A stretch of 44,900 bases of DNA from a virus: the IMG/VR virus record IMGVR_UViG_3300027996_000001, positions 1-44,900 of that record, one strand, 5' to 3'. The notes beneath the pieces were generated by a model. That model made no database searches, was not told the DNA's origin, and saw only the letters and a program-made list of their open reading frames with translations. The position numbers were made by a program, and so were the translations under genes. This document shows positions 18,268 through 44,900 of this stretch, one piece after another (positions within the stretch are counted from its first letter, which is position 1; each line of letters starts with the position of its first letter).

Positions 18268-18990
18268 TTATTGTAATGTTTTTTGAGGATTAATCAAATA
18301 TTCTTCTCTTAACTTTTTTAGAAAAAATATCTGACCACTTCAATTTATATAAGTTGTATTAGTTAATATATCTCATTTTACTGATTTTACAACTCTTTCT
18401 GATACAGAAAAATACTTTAAGCTATGTTGAAAAGGTTCGTTATTCTTCATTAAATAGCCATTTTTTCTAAACCATTTATATAATTTATTCTGTCATATAT
18501 TAATTCACTCATCTCATAATAATTTACAAAACTCTCTAACTAGTATTGATTCACTTGTTTGTGCAATAGTATTTGCAAAACTTACTAAAGGTCTATCTTC
18601 TTCTATTTTTTCTTCTAATATTAGATTCTTTTCTTTTTCTTTTATTATTTCTGTTTCTAAAAACTTAATTGATTCTAAAACTAAAGACATTCATGTTTTA
18701 GGTTTTTCTAATTCTAACCATCTATCAATAATTGATTCTCTTAATTTTGCATTATATCAACTCACTAAAGTTAGAGTTAGTTTTTTAGGAAGTTTATATC
18801 TCTTCATTTCTCCAGTTTGGCTTTGTTCTGCGAAGTAATATTTTACTTGGCTTTCTGCTCCCATTTCTAAATCATTAAACATCTTTTCAATATCCTTTAA
18901 AACATTACTATGTTCTTTTCAAGTAAGTATAGATATTTCTAAACTTGTCATTGTTAAGTTTTCAGTTGCTCCAACTAGTAAATCTGTCAT
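18268..18990 (-). CDS. Rha/KilAC phage antirepressor-like regulator
   Basis: A 240-residue two-domain regulator. Residues 1-95 are a Rha domain (TMTSLEISILTGKEHSNV ... RYKLPKKLTLTLVSGYN, then RESIIDRWLELE). After a Glu/Lys-rich linker the C-terminal half is a KilA-C/ANT domain (LVREFCKLLGDEGINIGQNK, then LYKWFRKNGYL). Such proteins antagonise repressors or act as DNA-binding switches. It sits between capsid and tail genes, as an independent unit with promoter 19087-19114 and a loop-paired attenuator (19004-19066). Function as a regulator is well supported; its target is unknown. Confidence 0.88.
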
Positions 18991-19003: not shown

Positions 19004-19066
19004 AAAAAAACAATAACCGACCAGAGTTATTGTTTAAATATAAAGCATAAATACTTTTTCTGGTCG
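19004..19066 (-). promoter_or_regulatory. loop-paired attenuator in the antirepressor leader
   Basis: On the minus strand a perfect 10-bp terminator stem (19026-19035 with 19008-19017) encloses the loop TCTGGTCG and ends in seven T. The eight bases CGACCAGA at 19059-19066, upstream in the RNA, are an exact complement of the whole loop. Pairing would make a pseudoknot or favour read-through. The two elements could also be an inverted operator pair at DNA level. Confidence 0.7.
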
Positions 19067-19086
19067 TTAAAAATATTTATACATGT

Positions 19087-26759: not shown

Positions 26760-27290
26760 TTATTGGGGGAATTCCCATTTATATCATCAAGCTGTTTTCC
26801 TTTTTCAATTACAGCACTTTGATATTAATCAATTACATATTCATAATTCCCTACTTATATCAGACAAACTATCCCATAATTTTATTATATTTCAATGTAA
26901 AGATAATTGTATCACTTTTTTTGAATTATGGTTTAATATTCATTGTAAACCTTTATATCACTTAATCTTTCTTCTTTTATTCATCATATCATCCATATTA
27001 TCCTGATGAGTACCTAAAAATAAATTGTTTAGATAATTATTACTAGGATTGTCATCTCTATGACAAACTAACATTTTACTATCATCTATATTTAGTCAAA
27101 GAAATGCTTGGGCGACTAATCTATGAATAGAAAACATTTTTTTATTATTCTTCTTTGATAACCTAACTACTTTATATTTTACAACAGTTCCTGGTTTTAA
27201 TATAATATTCTTTCTCAAACTTTTTACCATCCCTTTTATACTTACTGCATATAATCATTCATATCCAATAATATCTTTCCATTCCTCCAT
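26760..27290 (-). CDS. NUMOD4-HNH-NUMOD1 homing endonuclease (HNH 2)
   Basis: A 176-residue homing endonuclease with the three standard parts. These are NUMOD4 (MEEWKDIIGYEGLYAVS), the HNH core (IHRLVAQAFLGLNIDDSKM, then LVCHRDDNPSNNYLNNL and FLGTHQDNMDDM at residues 58-110), and a DNA-binding NUMOD1/HTH tail (KKVIQLSLHGNIIKLWDSL, ending AGGYKWEFPQ). Several conserved glycines are TGA. It belongs to a different subfamily from HNH 1 and 3. It has its own promoter and a complex attenuator leader. Its spread by cleavage of uninvaded relatives is known for the family. Confidence 0.92.
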
Positions 27291-27303
27291 AAATTTACAA
27301 ATT

Positions 27304-27391
27304 AAAAACTCTTACAAACAGGCTTAACTCGCTAAAGACAACCTGCTCGTAAGAGCCTATAATAAGGGCGAGTTAATTTAATGTCTTTAGC
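27304..27391 (-). promoter_or_regulatory. loop-paired attenuator in the HNH 2 leader
   Basis: In minus-strand order there are X1 (27382-27391), X2 (27368-27376), a terminator stem (27349-27355 with 27309-27315, then five T) and, inside its loop, X1' (27331-27340) and X2' (27324-27332). X1/X1' pair over 10 bp and X2/X2' over 9 bp, all perfect. The three helices cross each other, so they are alternatives or a pseudoknot rather than one nested fold. A smaller cagg/cctg pair closes the inner loop. Confidence 0.7.
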
Positions 27392-32583: not shown

Positions 32584-33180
32584 TTAAATTAACTCTAATG
32601 CTTTTTTATAACTCCAACCATATTTATTAATCCTAGTATGAATTGTATTATATTTTAAATTTAACTCTCTGCACCATTGAGTTAAATTTTGTGTTTTACC
32701 ATTTACTGTAATATTTAGATTATTTCTTTTATTGTTAGCTTGTTCTTTATGTGTAGCCCAGCAACAATTATAGCTACAATAATTTCAATTATTATCAATT
32801 CTCTCTATTGTTAATCATTCTTGATAGCTATATCACATATCCCTATAAAACTCTTCAAAATTACTCCATTCACACTTAATTCATCTTCATCCATAATTTT
32901 TATATCAAATATTTTTATTGTTTTCACATCTATTAATTATTCATTTAAAAATTTTATGTATTCTTAATCAACTCATTCAATGTGTTTTTATATTTTTTCA
33001 AATTAAACATCAACAAGATTTTTTAAATTTGTATAATATATCATTCATTTTAATTTCTATAATTTTTCAACAACTACATTTACATTGAACAAATCTAGTA
33101 TTTTCCTTTTTTTCTAATTCTTTCAATATAGTTAAAGAATAATATTTTCATCATATAAATAATGGTAATTTATTTAACAT
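32584..33180 (-). CDS. HNH homing endonuclease (HNH 3)
   Basis: A 198-residue endonuclease of the same family as HNH 1. A Cys-rich N-terminal knuckle (RFVQCKCSCGKIIEIK, KSCGCLIG) is followed by YGGRGIKCEW, the core LTIERIDNNGNYCSYNCC then WATHKEQANNKRN, and a C-terminal DNA-binding tail (LTQWCRELNLKYNTIHTRI). Tail and start differ from HNH 1, while the core is clearly related. It stands between a small gene and ERF with its own promoter and a leader built like that of HNH 2. Confidence 0.9.
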
Positions 33181-33197
33181 ATTAATTTAATTATAAC

Positions 33198-33289
33198 AAA
33201 AAAGAGTATTCAAGGATATACATAAATGTAATTGTGATCAAACAATTCCTTAAAAACTCTTTTTTGCCTATGTATATTACTGTTTGATC
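33198..33289 (-). promoter_or_regulatory. loop-paired attenuator in the HNH 3 leader
   Basis: In minus-strand order there are X1 (33281-33289), X2 (33269-33277), a 10-bp terminator stem (33256-33265 with 33198-33207, six T in the 3' arm) and, in the loop, X1' (33236-33244) and X2' (33216-33224). Both X pairs are perfect 9-bp complements. A further 5-bp helix (33247-33251 with 33212-33216) extends the terminator. The order of parts is that of the HNH 2 leader, with no sequence in common. Confidence 0.72.
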
Positions 33290-37146: not shown

Positions 37147-38124
37147 TTATATATTAAGTTCATATTTATTTTGTCTTTCACTTTTAATATTTGTATATTT
37201 TAAAGTGTCTATATTAAAATTCAACTCAATTATTCAGGTTCAATTAGGTTTTTCTCTATTTTTACCAACTATTAATTCAGTGATTCAATCTTCTTCTAAT
37301 AAATTTCTATAAAGCAATAATACTTTATTTGATACTTGTGAAATTGCTATTGTATCTTTAAAACTATTTAGATTAGGTCTTCATTCTAATTTTTTAAAAT
37401 GTGCAATTAATATTATTGCAATATTATATTTTCTTGAAAGATTTTTTATATTATACATTGTTTCTTCAATTCTTAAATCTTGTCTTTCATTAGAACTTTC
37501 TACTTTAAATTCCTGTAAATGATCTAAAACAATTAATTTTACTCCTTTTTCTATTCATTTTTTAATTATTGTTTCTACATCAACAATTCACATTTGAGTA
37601 TCTTTATTTCTTACTACATCATAAATTCATTTATTATCTTTTTTTAATCTTAATCTTGCTTCTTTTTTTTCTTCTATTATTAAATTATTTTTAATATCAT
37701 TACTAAAAAAATCATTGTAGGGGTATCAATTTAATCAATTTTTTCTTCTATTAATATTTATATCATAATACAAGTCTTGTTTTTTTCTATCCTGCAACCT
37801 ATCTTCAAGTGTAAATTTAAGCACTGTTTTTCATTGTTTAGATATGTTTTTTGCTATTTCGCTTGTAAAGGTACTCTTTCAAGTTCAAGTTGTACCTCAG
37901 ACTAATATAAGCTGTCATGGTAAAATATATCAAATTTTATCATCTAAAGATTTATACCCCCAACTAATTACATCATCAGGATTAGTGTTTTTTAATTCTT
38001 CTATTCATTCATCTAAAGTTTCTCAATATTCTTTAATTTCAAATTCTTCCATTCTATCATAATCTACTTCTTTCTCATAATCCTTTAATAAATTTTTAGC
38101 ATTGTCTAAATTTATTTCTTTCAT
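37147..38124 (-). CDS. DnaB-type replicative helicase (C-terminal domain only)
   Basis: A 325-residue RecA-fold helicase, shorter than the usual 450 because the N-terminal DnaB domain is missing. IGYILPGQLILVGG leads into the Walker A GTTGTGKST near residue 75. LKFTLEDRLQDRK is the following catalytic-Glu strand. LIVLDHLQEF is Walker B and LIAHFKKLEG the H3 motif, with NREKPNG as likely arginine-finger region. The invariant Walker glycines are TGA, which fixes the code. The gene ends in three consecutive TAA codons. It unwinds DNA at the fork with the adjacent primase. Confidence 0.92.
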
Positions 38125-39068
38125 AAAAGTTTTTTAAAAAATAAAAATGTTTCTTTATCATTCCAATTTTTATAGTTCCTAACTAATGTAAAATTATTAT
38201 AACAGCTTTCAGTTGTTCCCCAGTTAAAGTATCTACTACCTCAATTACAAATTGTGTTTGTTTCTCTATTATAAAAATATCCTGTGAATGAATGTTTTTC
38301 ATTTTTAAAGTTTTTTTCATTTTTATCAAGTGGAAATTGTGGTAATAATAATTGAGCTATTTGATATGCAGGCAATAGATTCAATTCTTCATAAAATTCA
38401 TTTCACTTTTCTCAAAAATCTTTTATTTGTTTTTCTAATTCTTTTTGTCTTTGTTTTTTTTGTAATTCTAGGGTTTCTTGTTCTTTATTTGCAAAAGATT
38501 TAATTAAATTAAATAACCTACTCTCTTTTTCTCTACTAGCTAACACTTCTACCTTAGCTCAATTTTTTTGATTAACACTTCATGGTAACCTTAATATTCT
38601 TGCTAGGTTTTTACAAGCTTTATCACAATCCCATAACTTATCTCACATAAATCTATCCCATTGTCTATAAATTCTACTTACTCACATAGAATATTGTTCT
38701 TTAGTAAATGTTGTAGGTTTTCATTTATAAATAATATGTAATCAATTTCATGTAAATATTATTTCACTCCACTCTCAAAAATATTCATCTTCTTTTTCTA
38801 AATGTGCTACTAAATTTTTTCATTCAAAAATTATATCTTCATTACTAACCTCTCAATCAAAATTATTTCTTATATCTAAATCAAGGACAAATATATCTTT
38901 TAAAATAATATCCTCATCTTTTGCTCTTTCTCATTTACTATAATCTTTATCTTCTCTAACACCATGTAAATAATAAATATTAGATTCTTTATTTTTTTTT
39001 GCTTCTGCTTCTGTAATTACTTTTATTCAATTACTATCTATTTTAGTATATTCTGTGATTGTTTTCAT
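38112..39068 (-). CDS. primase (archaeo-eukaryotic primase-like)
   Basis: A 318-residue protein. DIFVLDLDIRNNFDG gives the metal-binding Asp pair, IIFTGNGLHIIYKG the SGNG-H nucleotide-binding motif and ARILRLPGSVNQKNG the conserved close, as in AEP-type phage primases. The remaining C-terminal 150 residues are helical (SFANKEQETLELQKKQRQ) and probably contact the helicase. The stop overlaps the helicase start by 13 bases, so the two are translated together. Confidence 0.85.
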
Positions 39069-39070
39069 AA

Positions 39071-39757
39071 TTATAAATATTTAATAAATCAATTACTTTG
39101 TATTAAAAATGTTAAAGGCTCTAAATGTTTTGTTTTATCTTCAACTCATTCTTTCTTTTTATTATATCAAGTATATGCTAATACAAATTGTTCTTTTGTA
39201 TATTCCTTTCTAATTTTTTTATAAGCTTCTAATAATTTTTTAGTTACTTGTCTTTTCTCTTTGTATAAATTATTCCGATGTTCTATAAATTTAGTAAGTT
39301 CTGTTTTTACATTTACTAAATCCCCCCCCTTGTATTTATTTTCTTTATTATTTTTATTAATATTATTAGTAGTTGTTATTTGATTGTTATTTGATTGTTG
39401 TTTGTTTGTTATTTGATTGTTATCTACTGTGTTATTAACTTGATATGTATTATAATTATTTACCTTTACAATGGTAAACTTATTGGTTGTTTTGATTGTT
39501 ATCTCCCCTGTTACATTTAGCTTTTTTAGTGCTGTCCTTACTTGCATAACTGTGAACTTGTTATTTTTTCAAGAAAGCTCATTTGCTAATGTTTGATAGG
39601 AGGTTATAAACTCTCATCTCTTAATTAATATTCACTCCCATTTCTTATCACTCCAGTTAGCTTTTAGTAAACAATGTATAAAAACATTAAAAACATTTCA
39701 ATTTTTATACCACTCCCATTCTAACATCTGTCTATGTAGTTGTATAAATCATTCCAT
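39071..39757 (-). CDS. DnaD-like replisome organiser / origin-binding protein
   Basis: A 228-residue protein. Residues 1-95 form the winged helix of phage replisome organisers (GFIQLHRQMLEWEWYKNGNV, then LLKANWSDKKWEGILIKRGE and VRTALKKLNVTGEITIKTTN). An Asn/Gln/Thr-rich linker (residues 100-150) follows, encoded by 11-bp tandem repeats, then a basic helical C-terminus (EHRNNLYKEKRQVTKKLLEA). It should bind the origin and recruit helicase and primase, which follow it. A run of eight G (minus strand, 39322-39329) lies just after the linker. Expression is from promoter 39889-39916. Confidence 0.85.
39374..39424. repeat. 11-bp tandem iterons, candidate origin
   Basis: Five units at 39374, 39385, 39396, 39407 and 39418 share the plus-strand pattern tgttatttgat, three of them exact. 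The period of 11 is one helical turn and is not a multiple of three, so the repeat is not a codon repeat. It lies within the linker of the initiator gene, the same arrangement as the lambda origin in gene O. Confidence 0.6.
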
Positions 39758-39776
39758 AATAATTATTAAAGCAAAT

Positions 39777-39885
39777 AAAAAGACACTAAAGTTCAAGGGT
39801 ACTCCAACTTTAGTGTCTTTTCTTGTTCTAATTAATATGTGCTTAAAGGAGTACCAGTCCAAACACCTATTAATTAGAAGACAAG
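39777..39885 (-). promoter_or_regulatory. kissing-hairpin attenuator in the initiator leader
   Basis: In RNA order, hairpin 2 (39868-39885 with 39822-39837, one 2-base bulge) exposes GGTACTCC (39848-39855). Hairpin 1 is a perfect 16-bp stem (39806-39821 with 39778-39793) that exposes the exact complement GGAGTACC (39798-39805) and ends in a T-rich tail. The transcript begins right at hairpin 2. The two loops can kiss over 8 bp, which could set terminator strength for the whole replication operon. Confidence 0.72.
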
Positions 39886-39888
39886 AGT

Positions 39889-39916
39889 ATTATATCATAA
39901 AATGTATTTTTTGCAA
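39889..39916 (-). promoter_or_regulatory. promoter for the replication operon
   Basis: TTGCAA (39911-39916), 16 bp, TATAAT (39889-39894) on the minus strand, a close match to sigma70 promoters. It drives initiator, primase, helicase and the small genes to the HNH nuclease. Confidence 0.82.
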
Positions 39917-39965
39917 AAGATTTTACGAAGGTCAAAACTATATATAAACTTTTCTATTTGTCAAA

Positions 39966-40055
39966 TTAATAATTTTCATGTAATAATTCCATTCTCTTGA
40001 ATTTAGTTTCAGCTACTACTTTTTTTAGTTTAGCTAGTTGTTGTTTCCTTTTCAT
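39966..40055 (-). CDS. very small basic peptide
   Basis: A 29-residue basic helical peptide (MKRKQQLAKLKKVVAETKFK ...), ending LLHENY. It has its own candidate promoter (40084-40111), which is the main reason to believe it. Function unknown. Confidence 0.45.
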   Translation of the reverse strand: MKRKQQLAKLKKVVAETKFKRMELLHENY

Positions 40056-44843: not shown

Positions 44844-44900
44844 TAATTAAAGTATATTGATTTTCTAATGAATGTAAAAAAAAGATTACTAATTAAAGTA
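44844..44900. repeat. direct terminal repeat, right copy
   Basis: Exact copy of bases 1-57. It carries the promoter of the gene at 44172-44822. See the left copy for interpretation. Confidence 0.9.
44851..44878 (-). promoter_or_regulatory. promoter for the 44822-43478 operon
   Basis: On the minus strand TTTACA (44873-44878) and TATACT (44851-44856) are separated by 16 bp. The identical copy at 8-35 is the same site on the circle. The predicted start is about 20 bases upstream of the gene at 44172-44822. The spacing matches the other promoters of this genome. Confidence 0.65.

Follow-up and report, generated by a model that had tools for sequence, protein, structure and literature searches.

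The window analysed here is a whole virus record of 44.9 kb. Translated with table 11 it contains short frames only, whereas table 25, in which TGA is read as glycine, yields a full minus-strand gene set, and reading TGA raises open-frame coverage from 0.16 to 0.89. It is from this use of code 25 that we deduce a host of the Gracilibacteria/Absconditabacteria type. A direct repeat of ~57 nt is present at both ends of the record (1–57 and 44844–44900; TACTTTAATTAGTAATC... on the minus strand), which makes it likely that the genome is complete and either circular or terminally redundant. No close relatives were found with the helicase as query, and the sole match to the terminase query, contig L006, is 99.96% identical to the window record and does not cover the leader at 39.8 kb.

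This leader stands before a replication operon on the minus strand, in the order promoter, long hairpin, 16-bp hairpin, U-rich tract, ~20 nt and the ATG of the loader gene (Table 1). An initial sequence-only reading had placed an initiator, a primase and a helicase behind it. The gene order is loader, primase and helicase, and the first gene encodes a DnaD-like helicase loader, not a classical initiator. The same reading had the two hairpins transcribed one after the other from the first base, which is about right: with the −10 TATAAT ending at 39889 and the outer helix beginning at 39885, the predicted +1 is among the first 3–4 nt of that helix, and the long hairpin precedes the U-tailed one, both on the minus strand. 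A start at the stronger promoter-like site further upstream would add ~45 nt ahead of the leader. A 28-codon ORF (MKRKQQLAKLKK..., 39968–40054, minus strand) lies between an upstream promoter-like site and the leader, and a similar short ORF is found at the same place in the code-25 phage G004.

Table 1. Predicted features of the 39.8-kb leader, its operon and the other leaders of the window.
Feature	Position	Strand	Remarks
Promoter-like site adjoining the leader upstream	39889..39917	−	−35 TTTGCA, 17 nt, TG-extended −10 TATAAT; TTATGATATAATACTCnTG identical in relative G004
Second promoter-like site, upstream	39937..39964	−	TTGACA-16-TATAGT (11/12); stronger than the 39889..39917 site
Hairpin 1, transcribed first	39821..39885	−	Can close a 10-nt loop holding GGUACUCC
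Loop-1 kissing element X	39848..39855	−	GGTACTCC
Hairpin 2, terminator-like	39778..39821	−	16-bp stem and 12-nt loop
Loop-2 kissing element X'	39798..39805	−	GGAGTACC, exact complement of X
U-rich tract	39773..39783	−	TCTTTTTATTT, 3' side of hairpin 2
DnaD-like helicase loader, first gene past the leader	39071..39757	−	Code 25; phrog_2514, E 1e-27
Primase-like gene	38112..39068	−	Weak matches: phrog_2478, E 2e-5; phrog_1829, E 5e-5
DnaB-like replicative helicase	37147..38124	−	PF03796, E 2.7e-23; phrog_19, E 1.6e-38
Second kissing-hairpin leader	19008..19082	−	X CGACCAGA, X' TCTGGTCG, U tract; before anti-repressor Ant-like gene 18268–18990 (phrog_63, E 1e-42)
ABCABC leader	27301..27391	−	a GCTAAAGACA, b TTAACTCGC, both complementary to the terminator loop; before HNH endonuclease 26760–27290 (phrog_59, E 3e-42)
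ABCABC leader	33195..33289	−	a GATCAAACA, b ATATACATA; before HNH endonuclease-like gene 32584–33180 (phrog_374, E 6e-52)

Two hairpins with complementary loops

The arms of hairpin 1 (39826–39844 and 39861–39879) are 89% complementary and those of hairpin 2 (39778–39793 and 39806–39821) form 16 perfect pairs, while the two loops are perfect 8-nt complements (GGUACUCC/GGAGUACC). The arm and loop coordinates thereby confirm the original description of a 16-bp hairpin and a long hairpin with exactly complementary 8-base loops. The stem of the terminator-like hairpin is AT-rich, and the U tract lies partly inside it. The minus-strand leader has a computed folding energy of −46.3 kcal/mol (z = −8.6 relative to shuffles), and the cost of opening the two loops is computed at ~2.3 + ~4.7 kcal/mol, with ~−12.7 kcal/mol for the 8-bp kiss before any kissing penalty.

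When the loop letters were shuffled, an 8-nt complement arose in 22 of 50,000 trials. A scan of the real genome for neighbouring hairpins whose loops complement each other over at least 8 nt gave two loci (39.8 and 19.0 kb), compared with one match in ten shuffled genomes, and a chance origin of the complementarity was rejected. Within the 44.9 kb, the X and X' 8-mers are each unique to their own loop and no target for either in trans was found. A leader peptide was also considered and rejected: the minus-strand frame that runs through the hairpins (39757–39862) is an upstream extension of the loader frame, and no separate leader ORF was seen.

Related leaders in the window and in code-25 phages

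A scanner for U-tailed hairpins whose loop complements the preceding 110 nt returned four strong leaders in the window, compared with ~0.45 per shuffled genome. All four are on the coding strand, intergenic and located just past a −10. The two kissing leaders (39.8 and 19.0 kb) have no sequence in common, and each leader within one genome carries its own X. At 27.3 and 33.2 kb, two upstream segments, a and b, complement the terminator loop, giving the order a-b-c-a'-b'-c'. The leaders at 19.0, 27.3 and 33.2 kb thus bear out the suggestion that the window's leaders follow the same principle in different topologies. Genus-1 pseudoknots include the kissing hairpin (ABACBC) and the pseudotrefoil (ABCABC) (PMC3390330); the 39.8-kb leader is of the former kind and those at 27.3 kb, at 33.2 kb and in G004 are of the latter, providing natural pseudotrefoil candidates. 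The last helix in these phage leaders is always a terminator-like hairpin. Elsewhere in the window, a further leader may contain a pseudoknot: in a hairpin at 2174–2264 on the minus strand, GCTAAGTAA[GTTAGATT]TACTTAGC, the loop complements AATCTAAC, which follows closely downstream and precedes the next gene.

Two code-25 phages were among the viral contigs with a loader homologue: G004 (locus L023, to which L020 is identical over the shared stretch) and G005 (locus L080). Outside the window, the promoter stretch TTATGATATAATACTCnTG is found in the viral collection only in the G004 type (two records). The G004 leader differs in sequence from that of the window, has the a-b-c-a'-b'-c' topology with a stem that extends into the U tract, and ends ~16 nt before the ATG. 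In G005, the same a-b-c-a'-b'-c' arrangement, formed by GGTCGCCAA/TTGGCGACC and GCATA/TATGC, stands before a small gene that precedes the loader gene. The scanner found exactly one leader in each of these genomes, at the loader operon and with differing sequences. The window's 27.3-kb leader resembles that of G004 in segment a (CTAAAGACATTAAAT versus CTAAAGAGATTAAAT), and a' carries the compensating change. Hence both code-25 relatives examined keep the leader logic at the same operon, with the ABCABC instead of the kissing topology.

Conservation of the kissing geometry in Bacteroidetes-type phages

Leaders of loader operons in relatives with TAnnTTTG promoters share the kissing geometry of the 39.8-kb leader. 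Their order is h1 with loop X+ACATTATA, spacer, terminator arm, inner stem, X', inner stem, terminator arm and U6. The likely assignment of these metagenomic relatives to Bacteroidetes hosts rests on the promoter type and on a cultured member, Cellulophaga phage phi18:3 (host Cellulophaga baltica #18), which carries two kissing-type leaders, with U tracts at about 3.1 kb (minus strand) and 23.7 kb (plus strand) of its record. In an alignment (A3) of 28 such leaders, found partly via loop complementarity, 92.8% of cells are paired, the covariation score is 0.757 as against 0.222 when shuffled and ≤0.129 when slid, and the 19 distinct X/X' pairs have 151 of 152 cells paired as against a mean of 100.6 and a maximum of 123. 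Because of this route of discovery the test was repeated blind to the loops, using the exact terminator-arm and loop string CCCTTGTAATGAAGTAGA, which retrieved 53 contigs and 38 distinct leaders with enough flank to be scored. All 38 have T6 or more and an exact loop complement of 7–9 nt. Because many leaders share X, more than half of the trials with swapped loops give a match as well, and the independent evidence in this set consists of about eight X variants, each matched. A covariance model built without the X pairs brought in further members. The pairing is kept over 6–8 nt in L056, in L160 and in the second leaders of L063 and phi18:3.

Loss of loop complementarity in relatives that keep both hairpins, the outcome that was said at the outset to speak against the proposal, is mostly not seen: the 38 loop-blind leaders of kissing geometry all keep the complement, and L166, with mismatches at 2 of 8 loop positions, is the lone exception among kissing-geometry relatives. 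The 39.8-kb leader has the two hairpins and complementary loops of an ABACBC kissing hairpin, the covariation being that of the Bacteroidetes-type family, and the loop–loop pairing is supported as real and under selection. The direct comparative evidence for this geometry comes from Bacteroidetes-type phages and not from close relatives of the window phage. RNAalifold, with no helices supplied, recovers the non-pseudoknotted helices (h1, inner stem and terminator) with covariation. A DNA operator or invertible repeat was rejected as an explanation of the hairpins because compensatory changes keep the RNA pairing while the sequence changes.

Within this family, h1, X and the inner stem have pairwise differences of ~0.60 each, the loop beside X, the internal loop, the spacer and the promoter of 0.20–0.35, and the U tract, the least variable part, of 0.02. 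Variable helices together with steady unpaired residues and a steady U tract are the signature of an RNA that is folded and in which the unpaired residues and the terminator both have a function. These values bear on control in trans, in which terminated leader RNA would accumulate and its loops would bind nascent leaders as the antisense RNAs of pT181/pIP501-type rep attenuators do. Those plasmid systems likewise combine a replication gene, a leader terminator and kissing loops, and the separate X of each leader within one genome would also suit such a scheme; the phage leaders differ from them in carrying both partner loops on one RNA. Sequence prediction lists no plus-strand promoter-like site just before the 39.8-kb leader. 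Against such control, a cis partner that matches perfectly should outcompete one in trans, and a separate antisense gene was not seen. X is no more variable than the other helices, so that extra diversifying selection on X (trans immunity) is not supported and the main argument for a trans-acting specificity loop is removed. We regard control in trans as very improbable.

The near-invariance of the U tract argues for termination rather than merely for a hairpin. It is left unexplained, as is the recurrence of a terminator as the last helix, if the fold is a 5' stabiliser that blocks 5'-end-dependent decay of the mRNA; in the code-25 phages the fold does start at or a few nucleotides from the predicted +1, and in the Bacteroidetes-type leaders it starts near the TAnnTTTG box, but on balance we give this explanation hardly any weight. 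The first gene mostly starts ~20–30 nt past the U tract, which makes a promoter between them unlikely and readthrough necessary. Position, conserved U tract and nearby start codon thus indicate that polymerase would have to pass the terminator to express the operon. Among the 38 leaders, neither terminator arm has a conserved alternative pairing (longest complement 3–5 nt), and the selected state would accordingly hold kiss and terminator together.

Proposed function of the leader

We propose, with a probability of roughly 55%, that the 39.8-kb leader attenuates transcription of the replication operon in cis by means of a kissing-hairpin (ABACBC) pseudoknot formed by the 5'-terminal part of the RNA. 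Hairpin 1 would fold on leaving RNA polymerase and display its 8-nt loop. Hairpin 2 would be an intrinsic terminator with an unusually large loop that pairs with loop 1 while emerging, before the 3' arm of the terminator exists, and loop pairing and terminator stem would coexist in one compact fold. Most likely the kiss would pre-organise and reinforce this long-loop terminator, with only a fraction of polymerases reading through by default to the loader, primase and helicase genes. Readthrough could be raised when needed by a phage or host antitermination factor, by elongation rate or by unfolding of the kiss. The proposal draws on the structure, the cis partner, the position past the promoter and the conservation of the fold with compensatory change. 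Points against it are the AT-rich terminator stem of the 39.8-kb leader with part of its U tract inside, the source of the comparative support in Bacteroidetes-type phages, the two loop mismatches of L166, and a kiss that would form constitutively and offers no obvious switch. Control of operon expression by the leader and its direction are what we infer from sequence, as are termination in vivo, the favouring of termination by the kiss and the nature of the relieving factor.

The same elements could act in the opposite sense. If X–X' forms first, it would ring the 5' arm of the terminator and hinder winding of the stem while RNA polymerase holds the 3' end, making the leader an RNA-only antiterminator of its own terminator. 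The order of synthesis does place X–X' before the 3' arm, the stems of the code-25 phages (15–17 bp) exceed one helical turn, and the terminator loop is tied to the 5' end in each of several topologies. However, the Bacteroidetes-type stem of ~10 bp is short enough to form without threading, and conservation of the kiss extends to the inner stem on either side of X', which suggests coexistence; opposition to termination is in our judgement unlikely.

A position right after a promoter, two hairpins, several operons per genome and conserved unpaired residues beside the helices also recall the put elements of phage HK022, whose putL RNA forms two stem-loops shortly after PL (PMC9378689). By analogy, the hairpins would bind the RNA polymerase from which they emerge and confer resistance to pausing and termination throughout the operon, the U tract being a pause site, and protein-free action in cis is conceivable for both. 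The put RNA is ~70 nt long, its two copies share sequence and the paper mentions no pseudoknot (PMC9378689), whereas the leaders described here keep a complete terminator U tract and differ freely in helix sequence. Two stem-loops near an early promoter are thus common to both, but the kissing leaders differ in their loop–loop pairing, their terminator U tract, the lack of shared sequence among members and the phages of other hosts that carry them (PMC9378689). A put-like function appears improbable.

The attenuator that we favour resembles known intrinsic-terminator attenuators in that a terminator-like hairpin and U tract stand between promoter and first gene, the predicted arrangement at 39.8 kb, with readthrough needed for expression. 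Leaders of the 39.8-kb type differ in having neither a leader peptide nor a mutually exclusive antiterminator helix, and in pairing the terminator loop with the start of the transcript. Given the absence of such a helix in 38 leaders, they would work like an attenuator rather than be a classical member of that group.

Relation to known RNAs

Among known RNAs, put, the plasmid rep attenuators and c4 come closest in function. The c4 antisense RNA of phages (RF01695) has paired a and b segments upstream of the antirepressor gene ant, and the 19.0-kb leader also precedes an Ant-like gene. The kissing leaders differ in that they have no Rfam match and in that their partner is the terminator loop, not a ribosome-binding site. 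Neither the window nor 17 relatives gave an Rfam match at gathering score, and a relaxed threshold added only implausible sub-threshold matches (microRNA and similar). A blastn search of annotated phages with the Bacteroidetes-type leader gave no match, and none of 296 Flavobacteriales host genomes matched model R1 (strict filters, no positive control). No description of a kissing or pseudoknotted terminator leader in phages was found in a literature search mostly outside subscription journals. The kissing terminator leader is apparently a real, undescribed type of RNA control element that recurs before replication genes in many unrelated phages. The contact between loops that was noticed in a single uncultured phage belongs to a conserved RNA architecture that lies ahead of replication genes, just past the promoter, in phages of distant hosts and is absent from Rfam. 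It offers a testable model for the metering of early expression in phages of poorly studied hosts with neither a leader peptide nor a known antiterminator protein, and phi18:3 with C. baltica #18 provides a cultured system.

Other pseudoknotted leaders

Beyond the kissing and pseudotrefoil leaders, those of the loader loci L072/L108, L041, L159 and L038 form an H-type pseudoknot with the terminator as second stem. Large plain H-type pseudoknots are found right after promoter-like sites and upstream of loader genes in standard-code phages (L001, 7715–7795; L107, 4800–4940), and in L081 and L035 pseudoknots extend to the start codon region. In a scan of 87 loader upstream regions, 21 had a pseudoknot score that no more than 1 of 20 shuffles attained, several of these loci being near-duplicates. 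Tentatively, and with less than even confidence, we suggest an undescribed and widespread class of phage control RNA in which the first bases of the transcript lock the loop of an intrinsic terminator by kissing, pseudotrefoil or H-type pairing, with topology conserved and sequence free. In phages whose hosts are of the Gracilibacteria and Bacteroidetes types, such RNAs would gate early replication, antirepressor and HNH operons, possibly as RNA-only termination/antitermination switches recognised by shape and not by sequence.

Kissing or pseudoknotted terminator leaders are also located directly before NUMOD4/HNH-type endonuclease genes in L063 (4235–4352), L047, L160 and L251, the type being read from the N-terminal sequence, and two leaders of the window likewise precede HNH-type genes. 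In L081 (2870–3010) and L035 (60–225), an upstream segment d equals the start-codon-proximal b' in sequence, so that both can pair with b, while a pairs with a'; in L081, b' overlaps a Shine-Dalgarno-like GGAAGG. This d/b' arrangement looks like a strand-exchange switch.
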